Assembly (NCBI GenBank): GCA_003247225.1
Contig: QKAK01000050.1
Coordinates: forward strand, 1 to 33,149
Origin: Spirochaetota bacterium
Lineage (GTDB): Bacteria; Spirochaetota; Spirochaetia; Treponematales; UBA12059
Direction: 5' to 3'
Length of the DNA stretch: 33,149 bases
Shown: positions 4,206 to 28,766 of the stretch, piece after piece
Numbering within the stretch: the first letter of the stretch is position 1
Layout of the letters: the number at the start of each line of letters is the position of its first letter
Program-made: the position numbers and the translations under genes
The notes under the pieces: generated by a model
Seen by the model: the letters and a program-made list of their open reading frames with translations, nothing else
Databases searched by the model: none
What the model was told of the DNA's origin: nothing

Positions 4206-5186
4206 GTGGTTCCCACAGCGGCCGTAGGCTTCGCCCTGGACGACACGAGGCTCCTCGCCGATGTCTGCGGCGTCAACGATTACAATCTTCGCGTGCTCGA
4301 GCGCCTCCTGGGGGTGCCCGTGTTCGTGCGCGGCAACGAGCTGTCGCTCGAGTCGCCCGATCCTGGCGTCCGCGAACTGTTCTCGGCGGTGATCGAGCAG
4401 CTCCTGTCGTCGATCGACGACGGCCTGCCGGCCTCCCCCGAGCTGATCACCGCGATCCACGCCAGCCTGACGCCCGACGGCTCCGGCGCCGCCAGCGGCA
4501 ACGCCAACGGCACCGCGTCGTTCAAGGACTCGGCGATCCAGGTGCCCGGCGCCTTCTCGAAGGTCTACCCGCGCACCGCCAACCAGGCCCTGTACCTGCG
4601 CGGGCTGGCCAGCCACGACATTACCGTAGCCGTCGGCCCGGCCGGCACGGGCAAGACCTACCTGGCGGTCGCCTGGGCCCTGCGCGAGGTGCTGTCCAAG
4701 GCGCGCAGGCGCCTGGTGCTGACGCGTCCGGTGGTCGAGGCGGGCGAGAGCCTGGGCTTCCTGCCCGGCGACCTGGGGCAGAAGATCAGCCCCTACCTGA
4801 GGCCGCTATACGACGCGATGGAGGCCCTGGTGCCGTACGACGTGGTCAAGCGGCTCGAGGATAACCATACTATAGAGATAGCCCCGCTCGCGTACATGCG
4901 CGGACGGAGCCTGAACAACTGCGTCGTCATCCTCGACGAGGCGCAGAATACCACGAAGGAACAGATGAAGATGTTCCTGACGAGGCTGGGGGAGGGGTCG
5001 GTCGCCGTGGTGACCGGCGACGCGACCCAGATCGACCTGCCCCGTAAATCCGAATCCGGGCTCGTCCACGCGCTCAAGGTGCTGTCCGACATCGACGACA
5101 TCTTCGTGTGCCGCCTCGACGGCAGGGACGTGGTCAGGAATCCCCTGGTCAGGAAGATAATCGACGCCTATGAGTCAGAGATCTGA
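4206..5186 (+). CDS. phoH: PhoH-family ATPase (YbeZ type)
   Basis: Cytoplasmic P-loop ATPase of 326 residues, the usual length for PhoH/YbeZ. Walker A is GPAGTGKT at residues 144-151, and Walker B is VILDEAQNTT starting near 241 (D244, E245). The N-terminal part (about 8-40) matches the family's small N-terminal domain. YbeZ-type proteins work with YbeY and are linked to RNA processing and ribosome maturation; the biochemical role is not settled. Start is GTG; no upstream in-frame alternative appears before a stop. The last 17 bases overlap the next gene, so the two are co-transcribed. Its neighbours, pgpH-like, ybeY and corC, match the phoH-yqfF-ybeY order of Firmicutes and the ybeZ-ybeY-ybeX order of Proteobacteria combined. 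Confidence 0.93.
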   Translation: MVPTAAVGFALDDTRLLADVCGVNDYNLRVLERLLGVPVFVRGNELSLESPDPGVRELFSAVIEQLLSSIDDGLPASPELITAIHASLTPDGSGAASGNANGTASFKDSAIQVPGAFSKVYPRTANQALYLRGLASHDITVAVGPAGTGKTYLAVAWALREVLSKARRRLVLTRPVVEAGESLGFLPGDLGQKISPYLRPLYDAMEALVPYDVVKRLEDNHTIEIAPLAYMRGRSLNNCVVILDEAQNTTKEQMKMFLTRLGEGSVAVVTGDATQIDLPRKSESGLVHALKVLSDIDDIFVCRLDGRDVVRNPLVRKIIDAYESEI

Positions 5187-10818: not shown

Positions 10819-10883
10819 GTTCTTCGGACGGATCAGTGTCCGTACCGAGCATCGTGTCTGTCAGCTCTACTAAAGGAGGGCGA

Positions 10884-12230
<1,347 letters not shown>

Positions 12231-12396: not shown

Positions 12397-12690
12397 TCAG
12401 CCGAGCGACGAGGCGCCTCCGACGGAGAACAGCTTGACGCCCTCGGTCGGGAAGCGCTCCTTGACGCTGCCGACGACGGCGCGCGCCGCGTCGGCAGCGC
12501 CCTCGTCGATATAGGCTATCAGCATGAAATTCTCCTCGGGCCAGGTGGCGGTGCCGAGCATCCGCGCCTCGCGGCCGCGCCCGTGTACCACGGGCACCAC
12601 CGTGTAGTAGAAGCCGTCTATCGCCGCCTCGAGCCCGTCGACGATGTCGTCCTGGACCGAGCGGTTGGCGATTATCTCTATCCTCGTCAT
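12397..12690 (-). CDS. PII-like small protein (PG0164-type) at the end of an RND operon
   Basis: Protein of 97 residues with the look of the PII/CutA-like ferredoxin fold: an opening strand MTRIEIIANRSVQDDI, a loop with YYTVVPVVHGRG (about 28-39), LGTATWPEENFML (about 45-57) and a closing helix-strand ending GVKLFSVGG. Small proteins of this type, often labelled PG0164 family or PII-like, are found next to RND efflux genes in several phyla. Their role is unknown; PII relatives bind nucleotides or small molecules and act as trimers. Here the ATG overlaps the pump's TGA (ATGA), so it is the last gene of the operon and translationally coupled. A sensor or modulator of the pump is an inference only. 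Confidence 0.75.
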   Translation of the reverse strand: MTRIEIIANRSVQDDIVDGLEAAIDGFYYTVVPVVHGRGREARMLGTATWPEENFMLIAYIDEGAADAARAVVGSVKERFPTEGVKLFSVGGASSLG

Positions 12691-15600
12691 ATCGACTCCT
12701 TGGCCGCGCCGCTCCGGCGCTTCTCGTTGAAGAACGAGTACATCACCGGGATGAAGAACAGGGTTATGAGCGTGCTCGACAGGAGCCCGCCGAGCACCGT
12801 CAGGCCTATCGGCTTGAGCATCTGCGAGTTCTCGCCGCTCGACAGCGCCATCGGCAGGAGGCCGAGCACCGTCGTCAGCATGGTCATCAGCACCGGCCTG
12901 AGCCTCGACGCGCCGCCCTTGACGCAGGCCTCGCGCACCGGCATGCCGCGGCGCACCAGCAGGTTCGTGTAGTCGACCAGCACGATGCCGTTGTTGACGA
13001 CGATGCCGATGAGCATCACCACGCCCATCGCGGTGAACATGGTCAGGCTCTCGCCGGTGATCACGTAGACCGCGACGACGCCTATGAGGAGCAGCGGTAT
13101 CGTGAACATGTTGATGATCGGGTCCTTCCACGACTCGTACTGGCCGGCCATCACGCCGAAGACCAGGAGCAGGGCCATCGTGACGATCAGGACGAAGTAT
13201 CCGCCCGTCTCCATCACGCTCGCCCACGAGCCCTCGTACGAAAGCCTCGTTCCCTCGGGCAGCACGACGTTGTCGGCTATGACGGCCTTGATGTCGTCCT
13301 CGACGTCGCCGGCGCGCCGGTCGCTCGTGATGCTCGCGGTCACGTGGATGATGCGGGACTGGTCCTCCCGCGAGATGCTGACCGGGCCGACGCCCTTCTC
13401 GAGCGACGCGAAGTTGGCCACCGCGACGCGGCCGGAGCTGCCCTGCACGTAGATGCGCTCGAGGTCGGGCAGCTTGCTCCTGTCGGCCTCGCGGAGGAGC
13501 AGGGTCACCGCGTACTCGTCGCCGGACTCGCGGTAGGTCGTCGCGGTCACCCCGTCGACGCTCGCGTCTATCTCCTTGGCTATGGCCTGCACGGTCACGC
13601 CGAAGGCGTAGGCGCGCTCCCGGTCGATGACCACCTCGACCTGCGGCAGGCCCTCGTTCAGGTCCATCGCCACGTCCTCGAGGTCGGGTACCTTCTCCTC
13701 GAGCAGGTCGATCAGGGTGCGCGCGGTGGCGATGCCGACGTCGAGGTCCTGGGTCCGTATGACCACGTCTATGTCCGAGCCGCTCATCTGGCGCATCCTG
13801 CCCATAGAGAAGCTGAAGGTCGCGTTCGGGAATTCGGCGAAATGGGCGCGAAGCTTGGCCTGCATCGCCCGGGCGTCGTCGACGCGCTCGGAGAAGTCGG
13901 GCAGCGTAATGGACAGCTGCCCCTTGTAGCTGCTCGAGCCGCCGCCCATCCCGCCGCCGCTACCGACCGTCGTGATAATGGTCTCGGCGCCGTCGAGCTC
14001 GTCCATCGCGTAGGCTTCCATCGCGAGCATCACGGCCTTGGTCTCGCTCAGCTTGGTGCCGAGCGGCATCGTCACCGACAGGTTGATCGACGAGTCGTCC
14101 GAGTTCGGCATCAGGTTGATGTTCATCCCGGGTATGAAGGCGAGCGACAGGGCGAAGAAGCCGACGACGAGGATGACGACGGTCGGCCGGTGGTCGACGG
14201 CGGCGCGCAGGGCCTTGCCGTAGGCGCGGTCCAGGAGGTCCAGGGCCTTGCCGAGGGCTCCGTCCGCCGCCGCGAGGGCTCGGTTCCCGATCGGCCGTTC
14301 CTTCCGCGTCGTCAGCGGCAGGTAGGAGCTGGCGAGCACCGGCACGAGGAGGAGGGCGACGAAGAGGCTCGAGACGATCGAGATGACGATCGTGAAGATG
14401 ATGTCGCCGAACATCATGCCTATCATGCCGAGCTTGTCCTTGAAGAACAGGATCGGCACGAAGACGACGATGGTCGTCAGGTTGCCCGCGACGATCGACG
14501 AGGTCATCTCCTGGGCGCCCAGGATGCCGGCTATCGTCGGCTTGGCCCCGCGCTCGCGGTACTGGTATATGTTCTCGAGGATGACGATGGACGCGTCGAC
14601 TATCATGCCGACGCCGAGGATCAGGCCGGTCATCGTCATCATGTTCAGCGTAATGCCGGCGAAGTACATGCACAGCAGCGTCACGAGGATCGAGAAGGGT
14701 ATCGAGACGCCGATGATCACGGTGCTCTTGAGGCTCCTGAGGAACAGGAACAGGACGGCCATCGCGAGCAGCGCGCCCTGCAGGGCCGCCGACAGCAGGT
14801 TCGACAGCGTGCTCCGTATCGACAGCGTGTCGTCCGACACGATCTCCATGCTCACGTCCGAGGGCAGGAGCGGCTCGATCTCATCGAGCTTCTCGTAGAC
14901 GGCGTCGGCGGCCTTGACCGAGTTGGATCCCGAGCGCTTGGTCAGCGAGACGTAGACGCCCGGCTCGCCGTTGACGTAGACGAGGCGGCTCTCGTCCTCG
15001 TAGCCCATCGCCACCGCGGCGAGGTCCGACAGCCGCACGTCGTAGCCGCCTACCGTCCCGACGACGGTCGACGCTATCTCGTCGACGCTGGCGTACTCGC
15101 CGGTCGTCCGTATCAGGTAGTTCTTGGCGCCCTCGCCGATGCTGCCGCCGCCCAGCTCGACGTTGGCGGCGGCCAGCTTCGAGGCTATGCCGGTGATGGT
15201 CAGCCCGTAGGCGTCGAGCCGGTTCTGGGACAGCTCGACGCGGACGATGCGATCGCGTCCGCCGTTGACGTCCGCCTGGGCGATGCCGTCGACCTGCTCT
15301 AGCCTTGGCTGGATGATGTCCTCGGCTATGACCTTGAGCTCCTCGGAGCTGCGCTCCCCCGATACGGCGATGCGCATGATCGGCATGTCGCTCGACGAGA
15401 ACCTGAAGATCTGCGGGTCGTCGGCGTCGTCCGGCAGGCTCCTGCGTATCCTGTCCAGCTTGTCGCGCACGTCGTTCGTCGCGGCGTCGAGGTCGACGCC
15501 GTACTCGAACTCCAGCTCGAGCCTGGAGGAGCCCTCGCTCGAGGTCGACGATAGGCTCTGGAGGCCGGATACGTTGATCAGCGCGCTCTCGAGCGTAGCG

Positions 15601-15791
15601 GTGACGGATTTCTCGACCGACTCGGGGCTCGCCCCGGAGTAGCTCGCGCTGACCATCAGCACCGGCCGCTCCGTGTCGGGCATCAGGTCCAGGGCCAGGT
15701 CCGACACGGTGTAGAGGCTGACGACCATGACCAGCGCGAAGACGATGGCGACCAGCACCGGCCGCTCGACGACTCTCTTGGCTACGCTCAC
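12687..15791 (-). CDS. RND efflux pump, HAE1-like inner-membrane subunit
   Basis: Inner-membrane proton-driven exporter of 1034 residues, the typical RND length. The first helix (about residues 11-31), the large periplasmic porter domain beginning MPDTERPVLMVSASY, a central helix block (about 335-540), a second periplasmic domain and a terminal helix block (about 850-1025) are all recognisable. The proton-relay region GVGMIVDASIVILEN has D399, equivalent to AcrB D407, but Ala where AcrB has D408. Start is GTG at 15791, overlapping the adaptor stop (GTGA), with GGAGG (15799-15803) 7 bases upstream. It pairs with the adaptor and outer-membrane factor encoded just upstream to form an envelope-spanning channel. 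Substrate is unknown; hydrophobic drugs or lipids fit the HAE1 class better than metal ions. Confidence 0.93.
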   Translation of the reverse strand: MSVAKRVVERPVLVAIVFALVMVVSLYTVSDLALDLMPDTERPVLMVSASYSGASPESVEKSVTATLESALINVSGLQSLSSTSSEGSSRLELEFEYGVDLDAATNDVRDKLDRIRRSLPDDADDPQIFRFSSSDMPIMRIAVSGERSSEELKVIAEDIIQPRLEQVDGIAQADVNGGRDRIVRVELSQNRLDAYGLTITGIASKLAAANVELGGGSIGEGAKNYLIRTTGEYASVDEIASTVVGTVGGYDVRLSDLAAVAMGYEDESRLVYVNGEPGVYVSLTKRSGSNSVKAADAVYEKLDEIEPLLPSDVSMEIVSDDTLSIRSTLSNLLSAALQGALLAMAVLFLFLRSLKSTVIIGVSIPFSILVTLLCMYFAGITLNMMTMTGLILGVGMIVDASIVILENIYQYRERGAKPTIAGILGAQEMTSSIVAGNLTTIVVFVPILFFKDKLGMIGMMFGDIIFTIVISIVSSLFVALLLVPVLASSYLPLTTRKERPIGNRALAAADGALGKALDLLDRAYGKALRAAVDHRPTVVILVVGFFALSLAFIPGMNINLMPNSDDSSINLSVTMPLGTKLSETKAVMLAMEAYAMDELDGAETIITTVGSGGGMGGGSSSYKGQLSITLPDFSERVDDARAMQAKLRAHFAEFPNATFSFSMGRMRQMSGSDIDVVIRTQDLDVGIATARTLIDLLEEKVPDLEDVAMDLNEGLPQVEVVIDRERAYAFGVTVQAIAKEIDASVDGVTATTYRESGDEYAVTLLLREADRSKLPDLERIYVQGSSGRVAVANFASLEKGVGPVSISREDQSRIIHVTASITSDRRAGDVEDDIKAVIADNVVLPEGTRLSYEGSWASVMETGGYFVLIVTMALLLVFGVMAGQYESWKDPIINMFTIPLLLIGVVAVYVITGESLTMFTAMGVVMLIGIVVNNGIVLVDYTNLLVRRGMPVREACVKGGASRLRPVLMTMLTTVLGLLPMALSSGENSQMLKPIGLTVLGGLLSSTLITLFFIPVMYSFFNEKRRSGAAKESI

Positions 15792-16789
15792 TTGCCGGCC
15801 TCCGGCGAGGATATGTCCTTGACCCTGGCGCCGTCGGCGAGCACCGACGCGCCCTCGACGACGACGACCTCGCCCTCGGCCAGGCCGTCGGTTATCTCGA
15901 CGAGGCCGTCGACGTCAGCGCCGGTCTCGACGCGACGCTTCTCGACGGTCGAGCCGTCCTTGACGACGAAGAGGTAGTAGCCGGTCGAGTCCTGGAGCAC
16001 GCCGCCCGACGCGACGGCCAGGGCGTCGGGGTAGGAGACCGTGTCGAGCCTGATCTTGGCGAACATGCCGGCGTTGACGCGCTCGTCGTAGCGGTCGAAG
16101 GCCAGGCGTATCGTCTTGGTCCTCGAGGTGGAGTCGACGATAGGCGACACGCTCGACACGGTCGCGGCGAAGGCGACGCCGGGGTACGCCTCGAGCGACA
16201 CGGACGCCTCGAGGCCTACCCTGAGCACGCCGACGTAGCGCTCGGGGATCCTGGCCTCGACCTCGAGCTCGTCGATCGAGCCTATCTCGGCTATGGCGGT
16301 CGAGGCGCTCACGGTCGAGCCGACCGATACCGGCAGCGAGGTCACCGTGCCGGCTATCGGCGCGTAGACCGCGTTGAGCGTATAGGCCGATCCCGGGGTA
16401 GACGGGTCAATCTCGGCGATGGCCTGGCCCTTGGCTACGCGGGAGCCGAGCGACACCTTCGACGATACCAGCTTGCCGGAGACGTAGGGGTAGACCTTGA
16501 CGGTAGAGTCGACGACGACGTCGCCGTTCGTCTCGATGTAGTCCTGCATCGTCGTCCGCTCGGCGACGACGGTGCGCACCGAGAACTCGGTAGCGGCCGC
16601 GGCGCCGGGCGCGCGTCCGCCGGGACCGCCCGACGTCCTGGAGCCCGGCGGTATCGCCCCAGGCGCCCCCGGAGCCCCTCCGGGGATCGAGGCCGCCTGG
16701 TTCCCGGCTCCGGCCAGCTTCGGTACGACGACGACCGCCGCGATGGCGATCGCGAACAGCGCCAGTAAGGCTATGTTGCGTTTCTTCAT
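15788..16789 (-). CDS. RND periplasmic adaptor (membrane fusion protein)
   Basis: Periplasmic adaptor of 333 residues. An N-terminal helix or uncleaved signal (about 4-24) anchors it in the inner membrane, followed by a Gly/Pro/Ala-rich linker (about 30-65). Residues about 70-170 carry two adjacent lipoyl-like halves (YVSGKLVSSKVSLGSRVAKG, YAPIAGTVTSLPVSVG) with no long alpha-hairpin between them, so this is a short-hairpin adaptor. A beta-barrel domain (about 180-255) and a membrane-proximal domain complete it. Start chosen is ATG at 16789, with AAGGA (16797-16801) at a 7-base spacing. A TTG at 16795 would put the ribosome site too close. It follows the TolC-like gene with essentially no gap and overlaps the pump gene. 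Confidence 0.9.
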   Translation of the reverse strand: MKKRNIALLALFAIAIAAVVVVPKLAGAGNQAASIPGGAPGAPGAIPPGSRTSGGPGGRAPGAAAATEFSVRTVVAERTTMQDYIETNGDVVVDSTVKVYPYVSGKLVSSKVSLGSRVAKGQAIAEIDPSTPGSAYTLNAVYAPIAGTVTSLPVSVGSTVSASTAIAEIGSIDELEVEARIPERYVGVLRVGLEASVSLEAYPGVAFAATVSSVSPIVDSTSRTKTIRLAFDRYDERVNAGMFAKIRLDTVSYPDALAVASGGVLQDSTGYYLFVVKDGSTVEKRRVETGADVDGLVEITDGLAEGEVVVVEGASVLADGARVKDISSPEAGK

Positions 16790-16791
16790 GC

Positions 16792-18048
16792 TCAATTCCT
16801 TCCGAGCGAGCCGAACGGCTCGCCGAGCGCGTACTCGAGGTTCAGTATGGCTATGATCAGCGCGTACGACTCTTCCGATACGGCGAGCCTGGCCTCGGCC
16901 AGGCTGTCCTGGGCGTTCTGCAGCGTTAAGAGGTCCTTGGTGCCGTAACGGTAGGCCTCCTCGGTCAGGGCGTAGGTCCGCTCGGCCAGCGACTCGCTCA
17001 GGCGTCCCGTCTCGAGCGACCTGGCCGCCTGGGCTATCTCTCGCTGGAGCGCGGCGGCGCCGGCGATCGCCTTGGTCCCGGCCTCGGCGAGCTGGCTGTC
17101 GAGCTTGGCGAGCGCGTCCTCGGCCGACGAGACGGCGAGCCTCGCGTCGGACCAGGGCAGCAGGTCGTCGAGGCCCAGGCTGACCGAGGCCGACAGCGAG
17201 CCCGAGCCGCTCAGGGACGCGTCTGACAGGGTCGGCTTATAGGACGCCGACAGGCTCAGCGACGGCGAGTACACCGCGCGCCTGGCCTTGGCGAGGCTCG
17301 CCTCGGCGGCGGCCCTGGACCGCCCCAGGGTCCGTACCGACGGCGAGGCGACGCCGGCGGTCGCGGGATCGACGGCCGCGGCTGCTAGCACCGCGCCGGC
17401 CGGCGCGTCGAGCGCGCCGGCCGGCGTCACGGCCGCGCCCGGCTCGAGGCCGAGCAGCTGCCTGAACGAGTCGAGGGCCGACTCGTAGTCGATCCTGGCG
17501 CTATCGAGCGTCGGGCCGAGCTTCTCGAGCTTGACGAGGGCCGACAGCGCGTCGAGCTCCGGGGCTACGCCGGCCTTCCGCCTGGCCTCGGCCTGCTCGT
17601 AGCTCTTCCTGGCCGTCTCCGCGTTCTGCTCGGCCAGGCGTATCTTCTCCCGCTTCAAGAGCAGCGCGTAGAAGGCGGTCCGCGTCGACAGCTCGACGTC
17701 GCGCCTGGCCGTCTCGTAGGCCAGCGCGGCCGTCTCGTAGGCCAGCTCCGCCGCGGCGCGCGCGTGCAGCGACTCGGCGGACAGGCTCAGGCTCGCGCTC
17801 GCCGAGCCGCCGACGCTGCCGCGGCCCGAGCCGCCGCTGGCCGAGGCGCCTAGCGACAGGGACGGCACGAGGTCGTTCCACGCCAGCGACAGGGCCCTGG
17901 AGGCGGCCTCCATATCTATCTTGGACCTGGCCAGGCTCCCGTTGCCCTCGAGCGCGGTCGCCACGGCCTCGTCGACGCCGAGCGTCTGCTGGGCCCCCGC
18001 GGCGGCCGTCGCGAGCAGGGCTACCGCCAGCGCTATGGGTATTCGCAT
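16792..18048 (-). CDS. TolC-family outer-membrane efflux factor
   Basis: Outer-membrane channel subunit of 418 residues. A cleavable signal peptide (about 1-19, ending AAAGAQQ) is followed by two OEP repeats rich in Ala/Glu/Leu coiled helices (about 22-205 and 225-410), each interrupted by Ser/Gly/Ala strands (SLSLGASASGG near 65, SLSLSASYKPTLSD near 265) expected to form the beta-barrel. This internal duplication is characteristic of TolC/OprM. There is no lipobox cysteine. Start ATG has GGAGGG 4 bases upstream. It is the first gene of the four-gene efflux operon, divergent from a two-component system across 191 bases. Confidence 0.9.
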   Translation of the reverse strand: MRIPIALAVALLATAAAGAQQTLGVDEAVATALEGNGSLARSKIDMEAASRALSLAWNDLVPSLSLGASASGGSGRGSVGGSASASLSLSAESLHARAAAELAYETAALAYETARRDVELSTRTAFYALLLKREKIRLAEQNAETARKSYEQAEARRKAGVAPELDALSALVKLEKLGPTLDSARIDYESALDSFRQLLGLEPGAAVTPAGALDAPAGAVLAAAAVDPATAGVASPSVRTLGRSRAAAEASLAKARRAVYSPSLSLSASYKPTLSDASLSGSGSLSASVSLGLDDLLPWSDARLAVSSAEDALAKLDSQLAEAGTKAIAGAAALQREIAQAARSLETGRLSESLAERTYALTEEAYRYGTKDLLTLQNAQDSLAEARLAVSEESYALIIAILNLEYALGEPFGSLGRN

Positions 18049-18239: not shown

Positions 18240-18971
18240 ATGAAGGCGAAGGTCCTGATCATCGAGGACGTGGCGGAGCTGTCGGAGCTCGTGGCCCTGT
18301 ACCTTTCCAAGGAGGGCATGGAGACGAGGCGGGCCGAGTCCGCCGAGGCCGCCCTCGCCGCGCTCCGGGCCGGCGGGGCCGACGCGTTCTCGCCGGACAT
18401 CATCATCCTCGACATCAACCTGCCGGGCATGGACGGCTTCGAGTTCCTCGGGGAGTACCGCCGAACCGGCAAGGCTCCCGTGCTGATCGTGTCCGCGAGG
18501 GACGCCGACGAGGATATCATCGCCGGCCTCGGCCACGGCGCGGACGAGTTCGTGACCAAGCCGTTCTCGCCGCGGGTGCTCGTGGCCCGCGTGCGCGCGA
18601 TGCTACGGCGCGCCCAGGAGGCCCCGTCGGCGCGCGACGCCCGGTCGGTGCGCTTCGGCCCGTACTCGCTCGACCTGGACGCCTGCGTGCTCAGGCGCGG
18701 CGACGATCGCGTCGCGCTGTCCGCCAAGGAATACGCCGTGCTCGCCTTCCTGGCCTCGAACCCCGGCCGCCCCCTCGACCCCGAGACCATCTACTCGTCG
18801 GTATGGAAGAACGCGTACGGCGACGTGACCGCGGTGGCGGTGTATATCCAGCGGCTGCGCAGGAAGCTCGAGGCGGACCCGTCGTCGCCGAGGCACATCG
18901 AGACGGTCTACGGCATGGGCTACCGGTTCACGCTCGACCCCGGGCTCGAACAGGGCGGAGGCGGCCTATGA
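18240..18971 (+). CDS. OmpR/PhoB-family response regulator
   Basis: Cytoplasmic transcription regulator of 243 residues. The receiver domain (about 3-120) has the acidic pair E9-D10, phosphoacceptor D58 in IIILDINLPGMDG, and K107 in FVTKPFSP. The C-terminal winged helix (about 135-235) shows VALSAKEYAVLAFLASNPG and the recognition-helix/wing region AVAVYIQRLRRKLE followed by IETVYGMGYRF. The ATG is chosen because it precedes the receiver's first strand directly and has a GGAG; a longer reading would overlap the promoter. The stop overlaps the kinase ATG (ATGA). Divergent placement next to the RND operon suggests that the operon is its target. Confidence 0.95.
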   Translation: MKAKVLIIEDVAELSELVALYLSKEGMETRRAESAEAALAALRAGGADAFSPDIIILDINLPGMDGFEFLGEYRRTGKAPVLIVSARDADEDIIAGLGHGADEFVTKPFSPRVLVARVRAMLRRAQEAPSARDARSVRFGPYSLDLDACVLRRGDDRVALSAKEYAVLAFLASNPGRPLDPETIYSSVWKNAYGDVTAVAVYIQRLRRKLEADPSSPRHIETVYGMGYRFTLDPGLEQGGGGL

Positions 18972-20332
18972 AGATACGCAGCCAGTTCTATATCCTCGTG
19001 TTCGGCATCGTCGTCGTGCCGCTGCTCGCGTTCGCCGGCCTCCTCGCGATGCAGGGGGGACGCGAGTCGTCGGTCGTCCAGGTGCCCGGCTACGACGAGG
19101 TGGCCGCGCTGGCCGGCGGCTCGTTCGACCGGGCCTCCTGGGAGCGCCTCGCCGACTACATGGCCCACAAGCCGCCGACGATGGAGTTCACCGTGCTCGA
19201 CCCGGAGCGCCGCGTCGTCTTCTCGACGATAAGCGGGCATAAGGTCGGCGACCTCGTCTCCGACGAGGCCCTGCTCGGCTATATGCGGGAGACGAGCGGC
19301 GACTACTTCTATCAGATAGACTCGCCCGTGCGCTCGAGCGAGGGCGGCCTCCTCGTGCTGACCAGGATCGAGCGGTCGGAGCGCTTAAGGCCGCCGAACC
19401 CGTTCAACCGCTTCTTCACCACGTTCGCGGTGCTGCTCGCGGCGCTGTTCCTGTTCTCGGCCGGCATGGCCGTGCTGATCGCCAGGTCGATCACCCAGTC
19501 GGTGCTGGCGCTCGACGCCGCGACCCGGCGCATAGCGGCCGGGGAGCTGGAGCGGACGGTGGAGGTCCGCGGCTCCAACGAGATCACCTCGCTCGCCTCG
19601 TCGCTCAACGCGATGCGCCTCGCGCTGAAGGACGACCTGGCCAGGCGATCGCGCTTCATCATGGGCGTGACCCACGACCTCAAGACGCCGCTCGCTCTGA
19701 TAAAGGGCTACGCCGAGGCGATCGGTGACGGAATGGACGACGGCGCAGGCACCCGGGAGCGCTACGTCGGCATCATAGGGGCCAAGGTGGACCAGCTGGC
19801 GGGGATGATCGACGACCTGATAGACTTCGTCAAGGTGGACTCGGGCGAATGGCGGGAGCGGCTGGAGCTGAAGCCGCTGGCTCCCTTCCTGCGCGGCCTG
19901 TGCCGCAGGCTCGAGGCCGACGCCGTACTGCTAGGGCGCCGGGCCGAGTCTTCGATAGACCTGCCCGACGACCTGGCCGTGCCCTTCGACGAGCGCCTGA
20001 TCACGAGGGCGATCGAGAACATCGTCAACAACGCGCTACGCTACACCGAGCCCGGCGGGCTCGTGCGCGTCTCGGCCCGGGTCGAGCGCGGCGGCGACGG
20101 CGGCGAGCGGGTCGCGCTCGAGATATCCGACGACGGGCCGGGCATCGGCGACGGCGAGCTGCCGCTGATCTTCGACCCGTTCTACCGAGGCTCCGGCTCC
20201 CGTCGGGAGCAGGGCATGGGGCTCGGGCTGTCGGTGGTCAAGGGAGTCGTGGAGTCCCACGGCTGGGCCCTGTCGGCGCGCTCCGAGCCGGGGCGGGGGA
20301 GCGCCTTCCGTATCGAGGCGCCGCTACGCTGA
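18968..20332 (+). CDS. Sensor histidine kinase (HAMP, HisKA, HATPase)
   Basis: Membrane sensor kinase of 454 residues. Helices at about 7-27 and 158-180 bracket a periplasmic sensor region of about 130 residues of no recognised family. A HAMP linker (about 180-230) follows, then HisKA with phosphoacceptor H236 in MGVTHDLKTPLALIKGY, and a HATPase domain with the N box IENIVNNALRYTEPG (about 346-360), G1 DDGPGIG (about 389-395) and G2 GMGLGLSVVKG (about 415-425). The ATG overlaps the regulator's stop. Cognate partner of the response regulator. Its 3' end overlaps the convergent MATE gene by 9 bases. Confidence 0.95.
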   Translation: MKIRSQFYILVFGIVVVPLLAFAGLLAMQGGRESSVVQVPGYDEVAALAGGSFDRASWERLADYMAHKPPTMEFTVLDPERRVVFSTISGHKVGDLVSDEALLGYMRETSGDYFYQIDSPVRSSEGGLLVLTRIERSERLRPPNPFNRFFTTFAVLLAALFLFSAGMAVLIARSITQSVLALDAATRRIAAGELERTVEVRGSNEITSLASSLNAMRLALKDDLARRSRFIMGVTHDLKTPLALIKGYAEAIGDGMDDGAGTRERYVGIIGAKVDQLAGMIDDLIDFVKVDSGEWRERLELKPLAPFLRGLCRRLEADAVLLGRRAESSIDLPDDLAVPFDERLITRAIENIVNNALRYTEPGGLVRVSARVERGGDGGERVALEISDDGPGIGDGELPLIFDPFYRGSGSRREQGMGLGLSVVKGVVESHGWALSARSEPGRGSAFRIEAPLR

Positions 20333-21772: not shown

Positions 21773-22399
21773 ATGGCCCACGCGAAGGAAAAGATACTGG
21801 ACGCGTCGCTCGAACTGTTCTCCGCCCACGGATACGCCTCGGTGACGACCAGGGCGATAGCCGAGGCCGCCGGGGTCAACGAGGTCACCCTGTTCAGGCT
21901 GTTCGGCTCGAAGGAGCGCCTGTTCCGCGAGGTCTTCGCCTCGTTCTTCTCGAGGCCCGACGAGGCGCTATCGAGGATACGCCCGCGCTTCGAGCTAGAA
22001 TCGGACCTCGTCGAGTACGCCGGGACGTTCGTCGATTTCTTTTCCGCGAACCATAAGCTCGTCAGCATGAGCATCAGGAACATCAAGGAGGACTTCGCGG
22101 ACATCGACGAGTCGCTGCGCGACCAGGAGCGATCCATGCGCGCCGCGATCCTCTCGTACCTAGGCGGCATGGCGGCGTCCGGGGCCGTCGCCGGGAGCCC
22201 CGAGGAGCTGTCTCGGCTATTCGTCGAGTGCCTCTTCGGCATGGCGTTCAAGCGGATCAGGACGGGCGGGATGGAGAGCCTCGGCCCGTCGGCCGCCGCC
22301 TTCGCCGCGGTCTTCGCCCGCGGCGTCGCCGCCGGGGCCCATGCTACCGACGGCGCCCCGGTCGCGGGATCTCCCGGCCCGAGCCCCGGAAGCGCCTGA
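21773..22399 (+). CDS. TetR-family transcriptional regulator
   Basis: DNA-binding repressor-type protein of 208 residues. The N-terminal helix-turn-helix is at about residues 10-52 (AHAKEKILDASLELFSAHG start, then VTTRAIAEAAGVNEVTLFRLFGSKERLF). The C-terminal ligand/dimer domain (about 60-205) is helical and not recognisable by ligand. I chose the ATG at 21773 because it immediately precedes the HTH, whereas earlier starts would lie upstream of the promoter and operator. It probably represses both itself and the divergent MATE transporter through the palindrome between them, with induction by a transported compound (inference). Confidence 0.92.
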   Translation: MAHAKEKILDASLELFSAHGYASVTTRAIAEAAGVNEVTLFRLFGSKERLFREVFASFFSRPDEALSRIRPRFELESDLVEYAGTFVDFFSANHKLVSMSIRNIKEDFADIDESLRDQERSMRAAILSYLGGMAASGAVAGSPEELSRLFVECLFGMAFKRIRTGGMESLGPSAAAFAAVFARGVAAGAHATDGAPVAGSPGPSPGSA

Positions 22400-22419
22400 G
22401 AGCCGCCCTCGGGCGGCGC

Positions 22420-22448
22420 TTGCCGGCCGCGCCGCGCCGCGCTACGAT
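22420..22448 (+). promoter_or_regulatory. Leaderless-type promoter of the REC-PPDK gene
   Basis: TTGCCG (22420-22425), a 17-base spacer and TACGAT (22443-22448). Initiation 7 bases beyond the -10 would be exactly the A of the ATG at 22455. No Shine-Dalgarno is present. A small G+C hairpin (GCCGCC/GGCGGC, 22402-22417) lies just upstream, after the tetR stop. Confidence 0.6.
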
Positions 22449-22454
22449 AGCGGC

Positions 22455-25421
22455 ATGTACTTCAACGAGCTGGTCGCCGCGTACGACCGGGAGCGCCACG
22501 AGCGCGATACCTTCCACGACCTGATGCGCCACCGCGTGCGCGAGATACTGCTCGTCGCCAGCCTCTACGACGCCTTCGTGCTCGAGAGCGACGGCGCCCT
22601 GTCCGAGCAGATCTACGGCGAATTCTTCAAGCTCAACCTCACCACCGCGCCGAGGGTGTCCTGCGCCTATACGCCGGAGTCGGCGATGGAGATGTTCGGC
22701 TCAGGCGGCTACGACATGGTCATACTGATGGCCGGCCTGGACTTCGACGTGCCGCTGGCGCTGGCCGCCAGGATGAAGGCCCTCTGGCCGTCCGTGCCGA
22801 TACTGCTGCTCGCGATGAACAACTCGAGCCTGTCCGGCCTCGACGCCGGGTCGGACGCCTGCCGCGACGTGATCGACCGGGTGTTCGTCTGGAACGGCTA
22901 CTCGAAGCTGTTCATCGGCATGATCAAGTACGTCGAGGACCTGTGGAACGTCGACAACGACACCCGCGTGGGCATGGTACGGGTCGTGCTGCTCATCGAG
23001 GACTCGATACGCTACTACTCGCGCTACCTGCCGCTCCTGTACTCGGTCGTGATGAAGCAGACCCAGCAGCTGGTGGAGGAGGAGCGGGTCGTAGAGACCT
23101 ACAAGATCCTGAGGATGCGCGGGCGGCCCAAGGTCCTGCTCGCTACGAGCTACGAGGAGGCGATGGCCCTCTACGAGCGCTACGAGCCGTACCTCCTGAC
23201 CGTCATCTCGGACGTGCGCTACGGCCGCGGCGGCGCCGAGGACTCGGAGGCGGGCTTCCGCTTCCTCGAGATGACCAAGGCGCGCAAGCCCGACCTGCCG
23301 GTGCTGATCCAGTCCAGCGAGCCGGCCAACCGCGAGAAAGCGTACGCGCTCGGCGCCTCGTTCGCCGACAAGAACTCGAACACGCTGGCCAGGGAGCTCG
23401 GCGCGTTCTTCCAGGCCCAGCTCGGCTTCGGGCCCTTCGTCTTCAGGACGCCCGACGGCGTCGAGCTATCCAGGGCCAGGAATATGGAGGAATTCGTCGA
23501 GAAGATGCGGGCCGTGCCGCCCGAGTGCCTGCTGTACCACGCGACCCGCAACCACTTCTCCGCCTGGCTGATGGCCAGGGGGGAGGTCCGTTTCGCCCGC
23601 ATCATCCGGAACTACCTCCCCGACGACTTCGCGGGGCCGACCGAGCTGCGCGACTTCATCTGCCGCGCCCTCGACGACCTGCAGCGCGGCAAGGCGCGCG
23701 GCGTCATGCCCGCCGTCGGGGCCGGCTTCGGCGATAGGGGCCTGGCCAGGCTCGGAGGGGGCTCGGTCGGCGGCAAGGGCCGCGGTCTGGCCTTCATCAA
23801 GAGCCTGATCGACAACCTGGCCTTCCCGAACCGGGGCGGAGGCGTCGACATCAGGCTGCCGTACACGGCGTTCATCGGGATAGACGAGTTCGAGCGCTTC
23901 ATGGACCAGCACGGCCTCTGGGGCTACTCGTGGTACTCCGCCCCGGAGGACGACGTGCGCGCCGCGTTCCTATCGCATCCGCTCGACGCGGAGCTCGTCT
24001 CCAGGCTGCGATCCTACCTGGCCTCGACCGATAAGCCGCTCGCCGTGCGGTCGTCGGGCCTGTTCGAGGACATGCTGATGGTGCCGTTCTCCGGCGTCTA
24101 CGACACCTTCCTGATCCCGAACGCCCACCCCGATCCCGAGCGGCGCCTGGCGCAGCTCTGCGACGCCGTCAGGCTCATCTACGCCAGCCTCTACTCGACG
24201 ACGGCCCGCGCCTACTTCGACGCGTCCGGCTACAAGATCGAGGAGGAGCGGATGGCGGTCGTCATCCAGGAGCTGGTCGGGACCAGGCGCGGCCGCTGGT
24301 ACTATCCGCTGATCTCCGGCACCGCCCAGTCCTATAACTACTATCCCGTCTCGTACCTGAAGCCCGACGACGGCCTCTGCGTCGCGGCGCTCGGCCTCGG
24401 GCCCTACGTCGTCGAGGGCGGCGAGGCGCATCGCTTCTGCCCCCGCTACCCCAAGCTCGACGTCGTCGCGCCGGGCCGGGGCCTGGGCGGCACCCAGCGC
24501 TGGTTCTACGCCCTCGACATGGAGCGGCTCGACTTCGACCTGACCCAGGGCGAGGAGGCCACCCTGTCGCGCCTCGACGTCTCCGAGGCCGAGCCCGACC
24601 CGGGCTTCGCGATGGTCGCCAGCACCTGGAGCGTCGAGGACGACAGGCTGGAGCCGGGCGTCTCGGCCAGGGGCCCGCGCATCGTCGACTTCGCCCCGGT
24701 GCTCAAGTACGACTCGTTCCCGTTCGCCTCGGTCGTCGAGGCCGTCCTCGAGGTCGGGACCAAGAGCATGGGCATACCGGTCGAGATAGAGTACGCCGTC
24801 AGCGAGGACGGGCCTGGCGGCGCGCCGGTCTTCTATATGCTGCAGATCAAGCCGCTCATCCAGCGCTCGGACCGGGTGTCGGTCGACCTCGGCGCGGTCG
24901 CCAGGGGCGAGTGCCTCGTGGCGAGCGAGCGCTGCATGGGCAACGGCCGCGTACACGGCGTCCGCGACGTCGTGTACGTCGACCCGTCGCGATGGAACCC
25001 CGCCGATAGCGGGGCTATAGCCGCCGAGATAGCCGGCCTGAACGAGAGGCTGAAGGCCGAGGGACGCCCCTACGCGCTCGTCGGCCCGGGGCGATGGGGC
25101 ACGCGCGACCATTCGCTCGGGGTCCCGGTGAATTTCTCGCAGATATCGAACGCCAAGGCCATCGTCGAGGCCGACCTGCCCGACTTCAGGGTGGATTCGT
25201 CGCTCGGCAGCCACTTCTTCCATAACGTCACGGCGATGAACATCGGCTATTTCTCCGCGGCCTACGGCTCGCCGTCGTCCTTCGTCGACTGGGACGCGCT
25301 GGCCGCCCTGCCGCTCGCCGCGCGTACGGCGCATTGCTCGCTCGTCCGCGTCGAACGGGAACTGGAGATCCTCATGGACGGAAGCCGGGGCCACGGCGTC
25401 ATACGCCCGGCCTCCGATTGA
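22455..25421 (+). CDS. Tandem receiver-PEP synthase/PPDK-type ATP-binding protein
   Basis: Predicted cytoplasmic protein of 988 residues. Residues about 30-160 look like a degenerate receiver domain (VREILLVASLYDAF, YDMVILMAGLDF, PILLLAMNNS; phosphoacceptor aspartate missing). Residues about 175-320 look like an intact receiver (VVLLIEDSIRYYS with D183, D253 in VISDVRYG, S287/S288, K306 in FADKN). Residues about 430-800 resemble the ATP-binding domain of PEP synthase/pyruvate phosphate dikinase: GGGSVGGKGRG (K441), PLAVRSSGLFEDML (R532) and LQIKPL (796-801). A C-terminal region (about 800-980) has GPGRWGTRDHSLGVPVNF and SLGSHFFHNVTAMNIGYF. The swivelling phosphohistidine domain and the PEP/pyruvate barrel are absent, so it should not be a complete PEP synthase. 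Similar long proteins occur in Bacteroidetes and spirochaetes; function unknown. A signalling phosphotransfer role is inference. Confidence 0.75.
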   Translation: MYFNELVAAYDRERHERDTFHDLMRHRVREILLVASLYDAFVLESDGALSEQIYGEFFKLNLTTAPRVSCAYTPESAMEMFGSGGYDMVILMAGLDFDVPLALAARMKALWPSVPILLLAMNNSSLSGLDAGSDACRDVIDRVFVWNGYSKLFIGMIKYVEDLWNVDNDTRVGMVRVVLLIEDSIRYYSRYLPLLYSVVMKQTQQLVEEERVVETYKILRMRGRPKVLLATSYEEAMALYERYEPYLLTVISDVRYGRGGAEDSEAGFRFLEMTKARKPDLPVLIQSSEPANREKAYALGASFADKNSNTLARELGAFFQAQLGFGPFVFRTPDGVELSRARNMEEFVEKMRAVPPECLLYHATRNHFSAWLMARGEVRFARIIRNYLPDDFAGPTELRDFICRALDDLQRGKARGVMPAVGAGFGDRGLARLGGGSVGGKGRGLAFIKSLIDNLAFPNRGGGVDIRLPYTAFIGIDEFERFMDQHGLWGYSWYSAPEDDVRAAFLSHPLDAELVSRLRSYLASTDKPLAVRSSGLFEDMLMVPFSGVYDTFLIPNAHPDPERRLAQLCDAVRLIYASLYSTTARAYFDASGYKIEEERMAVVIQELVGTRRGRWYYPLISGTAQSYNYYPVSYLKPDDGLCVAALGLGPYVVEGGEAHRFCPRYPKLDVVAPGRGLGGTQRWFYALDMERLDFDLTQGEEATLSRLDVSEAEPDPGFAMVASTWSVEDDRLEPGVSARGPRIVDFAPVLKYDSFPFASVVEAVLEVGTKSMGIPVEIEYAVSEDGPGGAPVFYMLQIKPLIQRSDRVSVDLGAVARGECLVASERCMGNGRVHGVRDVVYVDPSRWNPADSGAIAAEIAGLNERLKAEGRPYALVGPGRWGTRDHSLGVPVNFSQISNAKAIVEADLPDFRVDSSLGSHFFHNVTAMNIGYFSAAYGSPSSFVDWDALAALPLAARTAHCSLVRVERELEILMDGSRGHGVIRPASD

Positions 25422-25446
25422 CGACGAAGGCGAATTCCGACACTAT
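25418..25446 (+). promoter_or_regulatory. Possible pheS promoter
   Basis: TTGACG (25418-25423, overlapping the upstream stop codon), a 17-base spacer and CACTAT (25441-25446). The -35 is good and the -10 is mediocre. It would give a leader of about 28 bases to the ATG at 25481. Confidence 0.4.
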
Positions 25447-25480
25447 CGTAGCAACTATAGCAGACGCTGGAGAATGCACC

Positions 25481-27034
25481 ATGGATCCACGATCGTTCCT
25501 CAAGGGCTTGCACCCGCTCGAGATAAAGGTACTGCTCCGATACGCGCCGGGAGACGGCCTCGACGCCGCCAGGCTCGCCGCGGAGCTCGGCTACGTCGAG
25601 GGGCACGCCAACCAGGCCCAGGCCTGGCTGAGCGCCAAGGGGCTGGCGGCCGAATCGGGCCGCTCGTCGCGTAACGTCTACGAGCTGACCTCGCTCGGCC
25701 GCTCGTGGCTCGAGGCCGGCTCTCCCGAGGAGCGCATGGTCGCGTGGCTTGCCGAGCACGGCCCGGCCGCGATGCCGGCCATCTGCCAAGCCGTCGGCAT
25801 CGAGCAGAAGGACGCCGGCTCGGCGTACGGCCGACTCTCGAAGGAGGGCGTGCTCGCGATGGGGCAGGATAAGCTCGTCGCGCTCGTCGACGCGTCCAAG
25901 TCGCTGCGGGCCGCCGCGCTCAAGGCGCTGCTGGCCAAGGCCGACGCGGCCGGCGGCATCCTGGAAGAAGGCGCCCTGGGGGACGCCGAGCGCGCGCTGA
26001 TGGCCGAGGTGGCCAAGAAGCGCGGCGCCGCCGACGCCGCGTTCAAGGCGGCCGAGCGCGAGACCGTCACCTGGACGCTCACGGCCGACGCGGCGGCCGT
26101 CTCTGACCTGCTGCGCGCCGAGGGCGTGTCCGGCGACGAGCTCGGCGCCGTCACGCAGGAGATGCTCGAGTCCGGCTCGTGGAAGGGCGCCGCGTTCAGG
26201 TCGTACAACATCAAGAGCCGCCCGGCCCGACTGATACCGGGCCGCCGCAACCCCTACGTGCAGTTCCTCGAGAGCGTCAAGGACAAGCTCGTCTCCCTCG
26301 GCTTCGAGGAATTCGACGGAGGGCTCGTCGAGACCGAGTTCTGGAACGGCGACGCGCTGTTCATGCCCCAGTTCCACTCCGCCCGCGATATCCACGACGT
26401 CTACTACGTCTCGGAGCCGACCAAGGCCAAGTCCATCGAGGAGCCCTACCTGTCGCGCGTCGCGGCTACCCACGAGAACGGCGGCGCCACCGGCTCCCGC
26501 GGCTGGCGCTACGGCTTCGACCGCGAGTTCACCAAGCGCCTGGTGCTGCGCAGCCAGGGCACGGTGCTGTCCGCCAGGCAGCTGCCGACCGCGTCGGTGC
26601 CCGGCAAGTACTTCGGCATCGCGCGCTGCTTCCGCTACGACAAGGTCGACGCGACCCACCTGTCCGACTTCTACCAGACCGAGGGCATCGTGCTCGGCGA
26701 GGACGTCAGCCTGCGCACCCTGCTCGGCTTCCTCGAGATGTTCGCCGTGGAGGTGGCCGGCGCCAAGGAAGTCAAGTACGTGCCCGGCTACTTCCCGTTC
26801 ACCGAGCCGTCGGTCGAGGTGCACATCAAGCACCCGGTGCTCGGCTGGTTCGAGCTCGGCGGCGCCGGCATCTTCAGGCCGGAGGTCACCGAGCCGCTCG
26901 GCGTCAGCGTGCCGGTGCTCGCCTGGGGCATAGGCATAGACCGCATGGCCCTGATGGCGCTCGGCCTCAACGACCTGCGCGAGCTGTTCAGCTACGATAT
27001 CGAAGACGTGCGCCTCAGGCGGGCGAAGCTGTAG
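25481..27034 (+). CDS. pheS: Phenylalanyl-tRNA synthetase alpha subunit, archaeal/eukaryotic type
   Basis: Catalytic subunit of 517 residues that charges tRNA-Phe with phenylalanine. It is much longer than the ~330-residue standard bacterial PheS. The first ~200 residues are helix-rich winged-helix-like segments (HPLEIKVLLRYAPG start), as in archaeal/eukaryotic enzymes. The class II core follows, with motif 2-like region FGIARCFRYDKVDATHLSDFYQTEG (about 378-402) and motif 3-like GIGIDRMALMALG (about 484-496). ATG at 25481 has GGAG (25469-25472) 8 bases upstream. pheT follows after 28 bases, forming an operon. Spirochaetes are known for this type of PheRS, thought to be acquired horizontally. 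Confidence 0.95.
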   Translation: MDPRSFLKGLHPLEIKVLLRYAPGDGLDAARLAAELGYVEGHANQAQAWLSAKGLAAESGRSSRNVYELTSLGRSWLEAGSPEERMVAWLAEHGPAAMPAICQAVGIEQKDAGSAYGRLSKEGVLAMGQDKLVALVDASKSLRAAALKALLAKADAAGGILEEGALGDAERALMAEVAKKRGAADAAFKAAERETVTWTLTADAAAVSDLLRAEGVSGDELGAVTQEMLESGSWKGAAFRSYNIKSRPARLIPGRRNPYVQFLESVKDKLVSLGFEEFDGGLVETEFWNGDALFMPQFHSARDIHDVYYVSEPTKAKSIEEPYLSRVAATHENGGATGSRGWRYGFDREFTKRLVLRSQGTVLSARQLPTASVPGKYFGIARCFRYDKVDATHLSDFYQTEGIVLGEDVSLRTLLGFLEMFAVEVAGAKEVKYVPGYFPFTEPSVEVHIKHPVLGWFELGGAGIFRPEVTEPLGVSVPVLAWGIGIDRMALMALGLNDLRELFSYDIEDVRLRRAKL

Positions 27035-27062
27035 TCAAGACGAAAGAACGTGGAGATAGCGA

Positions 27063-28766
27063 ATGCCTAAGATAGAAGTGAACGAAAAGCTGTTCTTCAG
27101 CCTCGTCGGCCGCCGCATGGACGCGGCCGAGCTGGAACCGGCGCTCGAGACCGCGAAGGCCGAGCTCGACGCCTGGGACCCGTCCGGGCCCGAGGACGAG
27201 CGGGTCATCAAGATAGAGCTGAACGATACCAATAGGCCCGACCTCTGGTCGACCGCCGGCCTCGCGCGCCAGCTGCGCGTCCGGCTCGGCGGCGGCATCC
27301 CCGAGTACCCGTTCTTCTCCAGGGAGGGCGACCAGAGGCCTGCCGACTACCGGGTCGTCGTCGACGGATCGATACGCGAGCTGCGCCCCTACATGGCGGC
27401 CTTCGTCATCTCCGGCAAGGCGATCGACGACGCGATGCTCCGCGACGCCATCCAGACCCAGGAGAAGCTGTGCTCGAACTTCGGCCGCAAGCGCCGCTCC
27501 GTGTCGATGGGCATGTACCGCATCGAGCTGATCAAGTGGCCGGTCGCCTATAAGGGCGTCGATCCGGACGCCGTCAGCTTCGTGCCGCTGCAGTCGGACG
27601 AGAGCATGACCCTCAGGCGCATCGTCGCCGAGCACCCGAAGGGCAAGGAGTACGGCCACATCATCGCCGGGTCGCCCGTCTATCCGATCCTGATGGGCGC
27701 CGACGGCGGCGTCCTGTCGATGGCGCCGGTCATCAACTCCGCCGACATAGGCGCCGTCCAGGTGGGCGACCGCGACCTGCTCGTCGAGTTCACCGGCACC
27801 GACATGGCCGCCGTCTGCCTCTCGGCCAGCATCGTCGCCTGCGACTTCGCCGACGCCGGCTACGAGATCAAGCCGCTCCGCGTCGACTACGCCTACGACA
27901 CGCCGTTCGGCCGCTCGGTCACCTTCCCGTACTACTTCCAGCAGCCGGCCTCGGTCGATTCGGGCCGCGTCTCCAAGCTGCTCGGCGACAGCTTCGGCCC
28001 CGAGCAGGTCGTCGAGGCGCTCGCCCGCATGGGCGTCAGGGCCGAGGCCCACGGCCAGCACGTCAGGGCGGCCGTGCCCGAGTACCGCGACGACTTCATC
28101 CACGCGGTCGACCTCGTCGAGGACGTGATGATAGGCCGCGGCATGGCCAGCTTCTCTCCCGAGCGGCCGCGCGACTTCACCATCGGCCGGCTGTCGCCCG
28201 TCGAGTCGTTCACCAGGCGCGCTAAGGACGTGATGGTCGGCCTCGGCTACCAGGAGATGATCTACAACTACCTCGGCTCCGGCAAGGACTACATCGAGCG
28301 GATGAACGCGTCGGCCGACGACGTGATCCGCATCTCGAACCCGATGACCGAGAATTTCGAGTACGTACGGCCGTCGATACTACCGGGGCTCCTCCAGTCC
28401 GAGGCGGTGTCGAGCAAGGCCCCGTATCCCCATCGCATCTTCGAGGCCGGCAAGGTCGCGTTCCTCGACGACGCGAGGAACTACGGCACGGCGACGAGGC
28501 AGCGGATCGGCCTCCTGTGCGCTCACCAGGCGGCCGACTACAACGAGCTGGCCGGCGTCGTCTCGGCCCTGCTCTATTACCTCGGCGAGGAGTACTCGGT
28601 CGACGATTCCGACGATCCGAGGTTCCTTCCCGGCCGCCAGGCGCGTATACTGATAGGCGGCGAGCCCGTCGGCGTGTTCGGCGAGGTGCATCCGGCCGTC
28701 CTGGGGAACTGGGGCATCACGATGCCCTGCGCGGCCTGCGAGCTCGACCTCGAATCGCTCCTGTAA
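27063..28766 (+). CDS. pheT: Phenylalanyl-tRNA synthetase beta subunit, archaeal/eukaryotic type
   Basis: Structural/editing subunit of 567 residues, the short archaeal type; standard bacterial PheT has about 800 residues with a C-terminal anticodon-binding domain. Here the N-terminal tRNA-binding EMAP-like domain and the C-terminal B8 domain of bacterial PheT are absent. Recognisable regions are RPDLWSTAGLARQLR (about 58-72), the B3/B4 editing region with RRSVSMGMYRIELIKWP (about 144-160), B5-like FGPEQVVEALARMGVRAEA (about 311-330) and the catalytic-like core RLSPVESFTRRAKDVMVGLGYQEMI (about 377-400). ATG at 27063 has GGAG 7 bases upstream. Works as a heterotetramer with PheS. Confidence 0.95.
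   Translation: MPKIEVNEKLFFSLVGRRMDAAELEPALETAKAELDAWDPSGPEDERVIKIELNDTNRPDLWSTAGLARQLRVRLGGGIPEYPFFSREGDQRPADYRVVVDGSIRELRPYMAAFVISGKAIDDAMLRDAIQTQEKLCSNFGRKRRSVSMGMYRIELIKWPVAYKGVDPDAVSFVPLQSDESMTLRRIVAEHPKGKEYGHIIAGSPVYPILMGADGGVLSMAPVINSADIGAVQVGDRDLLVEFTGTDMAAVCLSASIVACDFADAGYEIKPLRVDYAYDTPFGRSVTFPYYFQQPASVDSGRVSKLLGDSFGPEQVVEALARMGVRAEAHGQHVRAAVPEYRDDFIHAVDLVEDVMIGRGMASFSPERPRDFTIGRLSPVESFTRRAKDVMVGLGYQEMIYNYLGSGKDYIERMNASADDVIRISNPMTENFEYVRPSILPGLLQSEAVSSKAPYPHRIFEAGKVAFLDDARNYGTATRQRIGLLCAHQAADYNELAGVVSALLYYLGEEYSVDDSDDPRFLPGRQARILIGGEPVGVFGEVHPAVLGNWGITMPCAACELDLESLL

Follow-up and report, generated by a model that had tools for sequence, protein, structure and literature searches.

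Domain organization of the protein

The stretch of DNA analyzed here (33,149 nucleotides, hereafter the window) raises the question of what a protein does that places tandem receivers in front of an ATP-binding domain of the kind found in PEP synthase and pyruvate phosphate dikinase (PPDK). The gene lies in an open reading frame spanning 22341–25421, and the start of the 988-amino acid protein was set to the ATG at 22455, where homology begins. The protein is real and conserved, and its features are as follows.

22455–25421, + strand: whole gene, 988 amino acids plus stop (REC1, REC2, DUF5752-like segment, ATP-grasp domain, C-terminal His domain)
22536–22940, + strand: REC1, residues ∼28–162, a receiver without phospho-Asp (Met92), from receiver-structure profile matches, site counts, and Foldseek matches to PleD-like tandem receivers
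22980–23429, + strand: REC2, residues ∼176–325, a receiver with an intact pocket (E182/D183, D253, S287, K306), from a weak Pfam Response_reg match and site counts
23211–23213, + strand: codon of D253, the predicted phospho-aspartate of REC2 (67/67)
23457–23744, + strand: DUF5752-like segment, residues ∼335–430, a weak match here and above the Pfam cut-off in two relatives
23748–24863, + strand: PPDK_N-type ATP-grasp domain, residues ∼432–803, from PF01326, site counts, and Foldseek
24870–25418, + strand: C-terminal domain, residues 806–988, confidently folded and without a Pfam match, from AlphaFold2, Pfam, and Foldseek
25212–25214, + strand: codon of H920, which opens a helix and is a candidate phospho-acceptor, from 78/78 sequences and predicted secondary structure

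The AlphaFold2 model of the full-length protein (mean pLDDT 83.9) matched rifampin phosphotransferase (RPH), PPDK, and the tandem receivers of PleD in a Foldseek search. A profile built from 67 sequences assigned the N-terminal region to receiver structures and the ATP domain to RPH and PEP synthase. NCBIfam returned partial matches to PEP synthase, RPH, and PigC, all far below cut-off. An earlier note on this DNA had proposed by eye a degenerate receiver, an intact receiver, and a PPDK-type ATP-binding domain, with neither swivel nor barrel and with a C-terminal His of possible function. This order was borne out: a pseudo-receiver, an intact receiver, and a PPDK-type ATP-grasp domain follow one another, neither a swivel nor a barrel was detected, and a C-terminal His is invariant. 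Residue conservation was assessed in 78 sequences in total, 67 from relatives of the same architecture and 11 from shorter relatives whose N terminus differs.

Receivers and DUF5752-like segment

REC1 is an aspartate-less receiver, matching receivers by profile and by fold without possessing a phospho-Asp. Position 92 is occupied by Met in 57, Thr in 9, and Ile in 1 of the 67 relatives and never by Asp, which confirms the degeneracy suspected earlier. REC2 features the acidic pair, the phospho-Asp position, the Ser/Thr, and the Lys expected of a receiver, although Pfam Response_reg matches residues 217–301 only weakly and below cut-off (E = 0.0014). Among the 67 relatives, D253 is invariant, E182, S287, and K306 are each retained in 66 (S287 being replaced by Thr in the remaining one), and D183 is retained in 63.

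REC2 and the ATP domain are connected by a DUF5752-like segment. The match is weak in the protein of the window (E = 0.045) and exceeds the Pfam cut-off in the relatives L088 (26.9 against 23) and L105 (23.2). Approximately 2 kb upstream of the gene, the window encodes an OmpR-type response regulator together with a HAMP-HisKA histidine kinase (18240–20332).

The ATP-grasp domain

Residues 437–807 match PF01326 (PPDK_N) with E = 1.2e-29, and the best structural matches in Foldseek are RPH (PDB codes 5hv3 and 5hv1), with PPDK (PDB code 1kbl) also found. K441, R532, E777, E779, and Q797 are each present in 67/67 relatives, and position 799 is Lys or Arg in 67/67. From their motifs and from established knowledge of PPDK, we take K441, R532, E777, E779, Q797, and K799 to be the catalytic residues. 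Together with H920, the catalytic positions are invariant in 78/78 sequences from two architectures, and the domain is predicted to turn over ATP. Thus, the ATP-binding and receiver residues that the earlier note had singled out (K441, R532, D253, K306, and D183) are retained across homologues at the frequencies given above.

Pfam searches of the 988-amino acid protein returned no match to the swivel domain (PEP-utilizers, PF00391) and none to the PEP/pyruvate-binding barrel; only 183 residues follow the ATP domain. In agreement with the earlier reading, the fold search did not find a complete swivel or PEP domain either.

The C-terminal domain

Modeled alone with AlphaFold2, residues 806–988 fold confidently (pLDDT 92.3, pTM 0.90). 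Pfam identified no family in the member from the window and no meaningfully recurring family among 58 members. A fold search of the PDB gave a best match at E = 0.022, followed by PPDK at E = 0.061, neither of which is significant. The domain was also aligned by hhalign with the swivel profiles of PPDK and enzyme I, giving probabilities below 1%, whereas the control alignment of PPDK with enzyme I reached 98.5%. The idea of a swivel had come from features seen by eye, namely a GSH motif ahead of a helix and a DG..G motif at the end of the domain. We dropped this identity in view of the hhalign probabilities, the lack of a swivel family in the 58 members, and the insignificant Foldseek match to PPDK. 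A structural analogy to the swivel is conceivable but unproven.

The His that had been noticed in the motif SLGSHFFHN is H920, the first His of the motif, and it is conserved in 67/67 relatives as well as in 11/11 shorter relatives. Its surroundings read S916-x-G918-[ST]-H920, and G879, R880, G882, G889, E905, S916, G918, and F921 are invariant alongside it in the same 67 + 11 sequences. Because the fold is confident, these residues are invariant, and neither a Pfam family nor a solved fold matches significantly, we regard the C-terminal domain as a conserved, catalytic-looking domain of an undescribed family, in which H920 may become phosphorylated.

Distribution and architectures

The family is found in 64/296 sampled genomes of Spirochaetota and in 87/99 sampled genomes of Bacteroidales; further relatives come from Acidobacteriota, Cloacimonadota, Riflebacteria, Bdellovibrionales, and Neomarinimicrobiota. 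The Spirochaetota members mostly fall into two classes, one of ∼980 amino acids with the layout described here and one of ∼870 amino acids that shares only the core of ATP-grasp and C-terminal domain. Longer members (1150–1571 amino acids), in many cases encoded by the leading one of two tandem genes, begin with between one and three GAF-like repeats, for which the GAF match is weak (best E = 0.041, below cut-off). Hence, the core is constant and the N terminus variable, consisting of two receivers as in the protein of the window, of GAF-like repeats, or of another N-terminal domain.

Pfam and PDB searches identified nothing in the N terminus of the short class, including no receiver. A likeness to KaiC/RecA had been seen there by eye, but was not confirmed by these searches, and we therefore describe this class merely as having a different N terminus. 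Two loci deviate from the common layouts. Locus L113 (G245:C115) encodes tandem members, the second of which matches the query piecewise, strongly over residues 1–652 and weakly in its C-terminal part, so that its C-terminal domain may be diverging. In Riflebacteria, a 783-amino acid protein with the ATP-grasp core follows a full-length member (L043, 13113–15464) and represents a third arrangement of the core.

Linkage to glutamate dehydrogenase

The main new observation is that genes of this family are linked to the gene for glutamate dehydrogenase (GDH). One GDH was found in the genome of the window, on the same contig and 10 kb upstream of the gene studied here.

10845–12230, + strand: GDH gene (open reading frame from 10803), from Pfam ELFV_dehydrog and NCBIfam PRK14030, above cut-off

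In the two closest of the sampled relatives whose loci were extended, GDH lies ∼3 kb upstream of the family gene. Clustering of the neighbors at 68 loci showed that GDH is the commonest of them, occurring within 2.5 kb at 28 loci. A KorAB-type 2-oxoacid:acceptor oxidoreductase pair is located directly upstream at 13/68 loci, and a NarL-type response regulator neighbors ∼10/68.

Whole-genome positions in Spirochaetota place GDH within 5 kb in 14/18 genomes with the receiver form and in 29/40 genomes with the short form, against a chance expectation of ∼0.4% per genome. In Bacteroidales, GDH lies within 5 kb in 32/83 genomes, where chance (∼1%) would account for ∼0.84 genomes, and is absent from this distance in 51/83. 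The linkage probabilities treat the genomes as independent although they are related; the recurrence of the linkage across phyla, orientations, and two architectures stands regardless of this assumption. Searches with GDH by tblastn extended the linkage to Acidobacteriota (L060, L062, and L071), Cloacimonadota (L095), and Bdellovibrionales (L109), in mixed orientation. Nearly all linked pairs in Bacteroidales have GDH either divergent upstream or co-directional downstream, and GDH genes flank the family gene on both sides in Phocaeicola massiliensis and Parabacteroides distasonis.

The two genes also co-occur, as GDH is present in 58/61 Spirochaetota genomes with the family versus 94/235 without it (Fisher p ∼3e-16, uncorrected for relatedness); many genomes possess GDH without the family. 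We compared the residues of 54 linked and 20 unlinked GDHs, and only Cys413 differed in conservation, with no phospho-acceptor signature. This weakens the case for a direct modification of GDH without excluding it.

Other parts of the window are noted here for completeness. GDH and the gene studied here are separated by a three-gene efflux-like block on the − strand (12687–18048), which by eye encodes an inner-membrane pump, a membrane-fusion protein, and an outer-membrane channel. Genes for phenylalanyl-tRNA synthetase (pheS and pheT by sequence, 25334–28766) follow directly after the gene, and several relatives among the spirochaetes (L032, L034, L035, and L093) show the same arrangement. 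A 7TM-HD receptor protein (5170–7371) is encoded beside a PhoH-like ATPase (4206–5186).

Proposed function and alternatives

The domain order, the conservation, and the gene linkage are observed. The earlier note had suggested a two-component-controlled phosphotransferase of unknown target, without mention of the DUF5752-like segment or of GDH. Its reading of the domains holds and, judged from the sequence, such a role is plausible, whereas the target is no longer entirely open, because the gene linkage points to GDH or 2-oxoglutarate metabolism. A signaling enzyme acting on the glutamate/2-oxoglutarate node is the simplest reading, since the core is constant, the inputs vary, and the short class is equally linked to GDH. 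In this reading, a constant ATP/His core controls the node under exchangeable inputs, with GDH as the favored target; our confidence in it is evenly balanced. The receivers would then be one exchangeable input among several and not the heart of the system, because the short class, with no receiver detected, is linked to GDH as well. We infer both the direction of control and the identity of the target.

A possible sequence of events would begin with a histidine kinase that phosphorylates D253 of REC2. REC1, which could not be phosphorylated on Asp, might act in dimerization or docking, in the manner of PleD-type tandem receivers. The state of the receivers would switch the ATP-grasp domain on or off, and this domain would use ATP to phosphorylate H920. 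From there, the phosphoryl group might be passed on by the C-terminal domain to the target, most simply to GDH, whose activity would thereby be altered.

Linkage alone cannot separate regulation from a shared pathway. The core might instead be a small-molecule dikinase whose substrate, a metabolite from the glutamate/2-oxoglutarate pathway, would be phosphorylated via a His intermediate, in which case the receivers would regulate the enzyme and GDH would be a pathway-mate. The similarity of the ATP-grasp domain to RPH and PPDK, the metabolic neighbors (GDH and the 2-oxoacid:acceptor oxidoreductase), and the existence of dikinases with varied acceptors (PMC12167813) are all consistent with this. 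However, Pfam detects no known acceptor-binding domain in the 988-amino acid protein, and the diverse inputs, the tandem duplicates, and the NarL-type neighbor at ∼10 loci fit a regulator better, so that we consider a dikinase unlikely, though the foremost of the alternatives. It is somewhat less probable that the core is an ATP-binding pseudoenzyme, which would sense energy or nitrogen and control GDH or its gene by contact, without phosphoryl transfer. Whereas the lack of a recognizable swivel and of a modification signature in GDH would suit such a protein, the invariance of the catalytic ATP-grasp positions and H920 in 78 sequences seems to exceed what binding needs.

Candidate His and Asp phospho-sites, both invariant, occur in one protein, which could also point to an internal phosphorelay, with the core acting as a non-canonical histidine kinase that sends the phosphoryl group from ATP via H920 to D253, either in its own receiver or in that of a partner. 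Tandem pairs and neighboring NarL-type regulators could provide such partners. Yet the short class, in which no receiver was detected, retains the core, H920, and the GDH linkage; a fused receiver is therefore not an obligatory acceptor, and we judge a phosphorelay very unlikely. About as improbable is that the linkage reflects inherited gene order or joint transfer with no functional tie. Within Bacteroidales the genes keep a fairly stable order, but the linkage is seen again in several phyla, in varying orientation, with two architectures, and with one or two copies of GDH.

The signaling enzyme acting on the glutamate/2-oxoglutarate node remains our preferred reading. GDH is a main enzyme of ammonia assimilation and glutamate breakdown in gut Bacteroidales. 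Present in 87 of the 99 sampled Bacteroidales and located beside GDH in several phyla, the family would be a testable candidate for GDH control. A more far-reaching version, which we consider unlikely, would see in the family multi-phylum, ATP-dependent regulators that covalently control GDH through an undescribed phosphohistidine domain, bear interchangeable sensory front ends, and explain the reported trans-acting control of GDH in Bacteroides.

Comparison with known systems

Our literature search for the architecture together with GDH, conducted largely outside subscription journals, found no paper linking the family to GDH. According to its title, a 1996 paper on Bacteroides thetaiotaomicron concerns one or more genes that lie downstream of gdhA and influence GDH activity in trans; a tie between these and the family is only a lead. 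The protein WP_041525632.1 of P. distasonis belongs to the same family (∼34% identity over 98% of the length) and adjoins gdhA. Bacteroidales members are annotated just as “PEP/pyruvate-binding domain-containing protein,” with no assigned function.

The combination of receiver and dikinase domain as such is not new, as the census of aspartate-less receivers by Maule et al. (2015) names pyruvate phosphate dikinases among the associated effectors (PMC4395418). REC1 shares with these proteins the lack of a phospho-Asp, whereas the census passage on these effectors does not mention GDH, a C-terminal His domain, or input variation.

RPH and the dikinases HpeHI, CreHI, and PpsAB (PMC12167813) resemble the protein in following dikinase logic without a PEP barrel and in having a conserved His toward the C terminus, and RPH also provides the best structural match of the ATP-grasp domain. 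In contrast to RPH and HpeHI-type dikinases, whose swivel motif is T/SXXGGXXXH (PMC12167813), the protein possesses S-x-G-[ST]-H instead, and no acceptor domain of the rifampin or phenol type is detected.

With PEP synthase and PPDK, the protein has in common the PF01326 ATP-grasp domain with its conserved GGKG, VRSS, E-x-E, and LQ-x-K/R positions. It differs from them in lacking a recognized swivel and a PEP/pyruvate barrel, in its different C-terminal domain, and in the tandem receivers in front. If the proposed function is correct, the ATP engine of PEP synthase would have been reused here as a signaling output.
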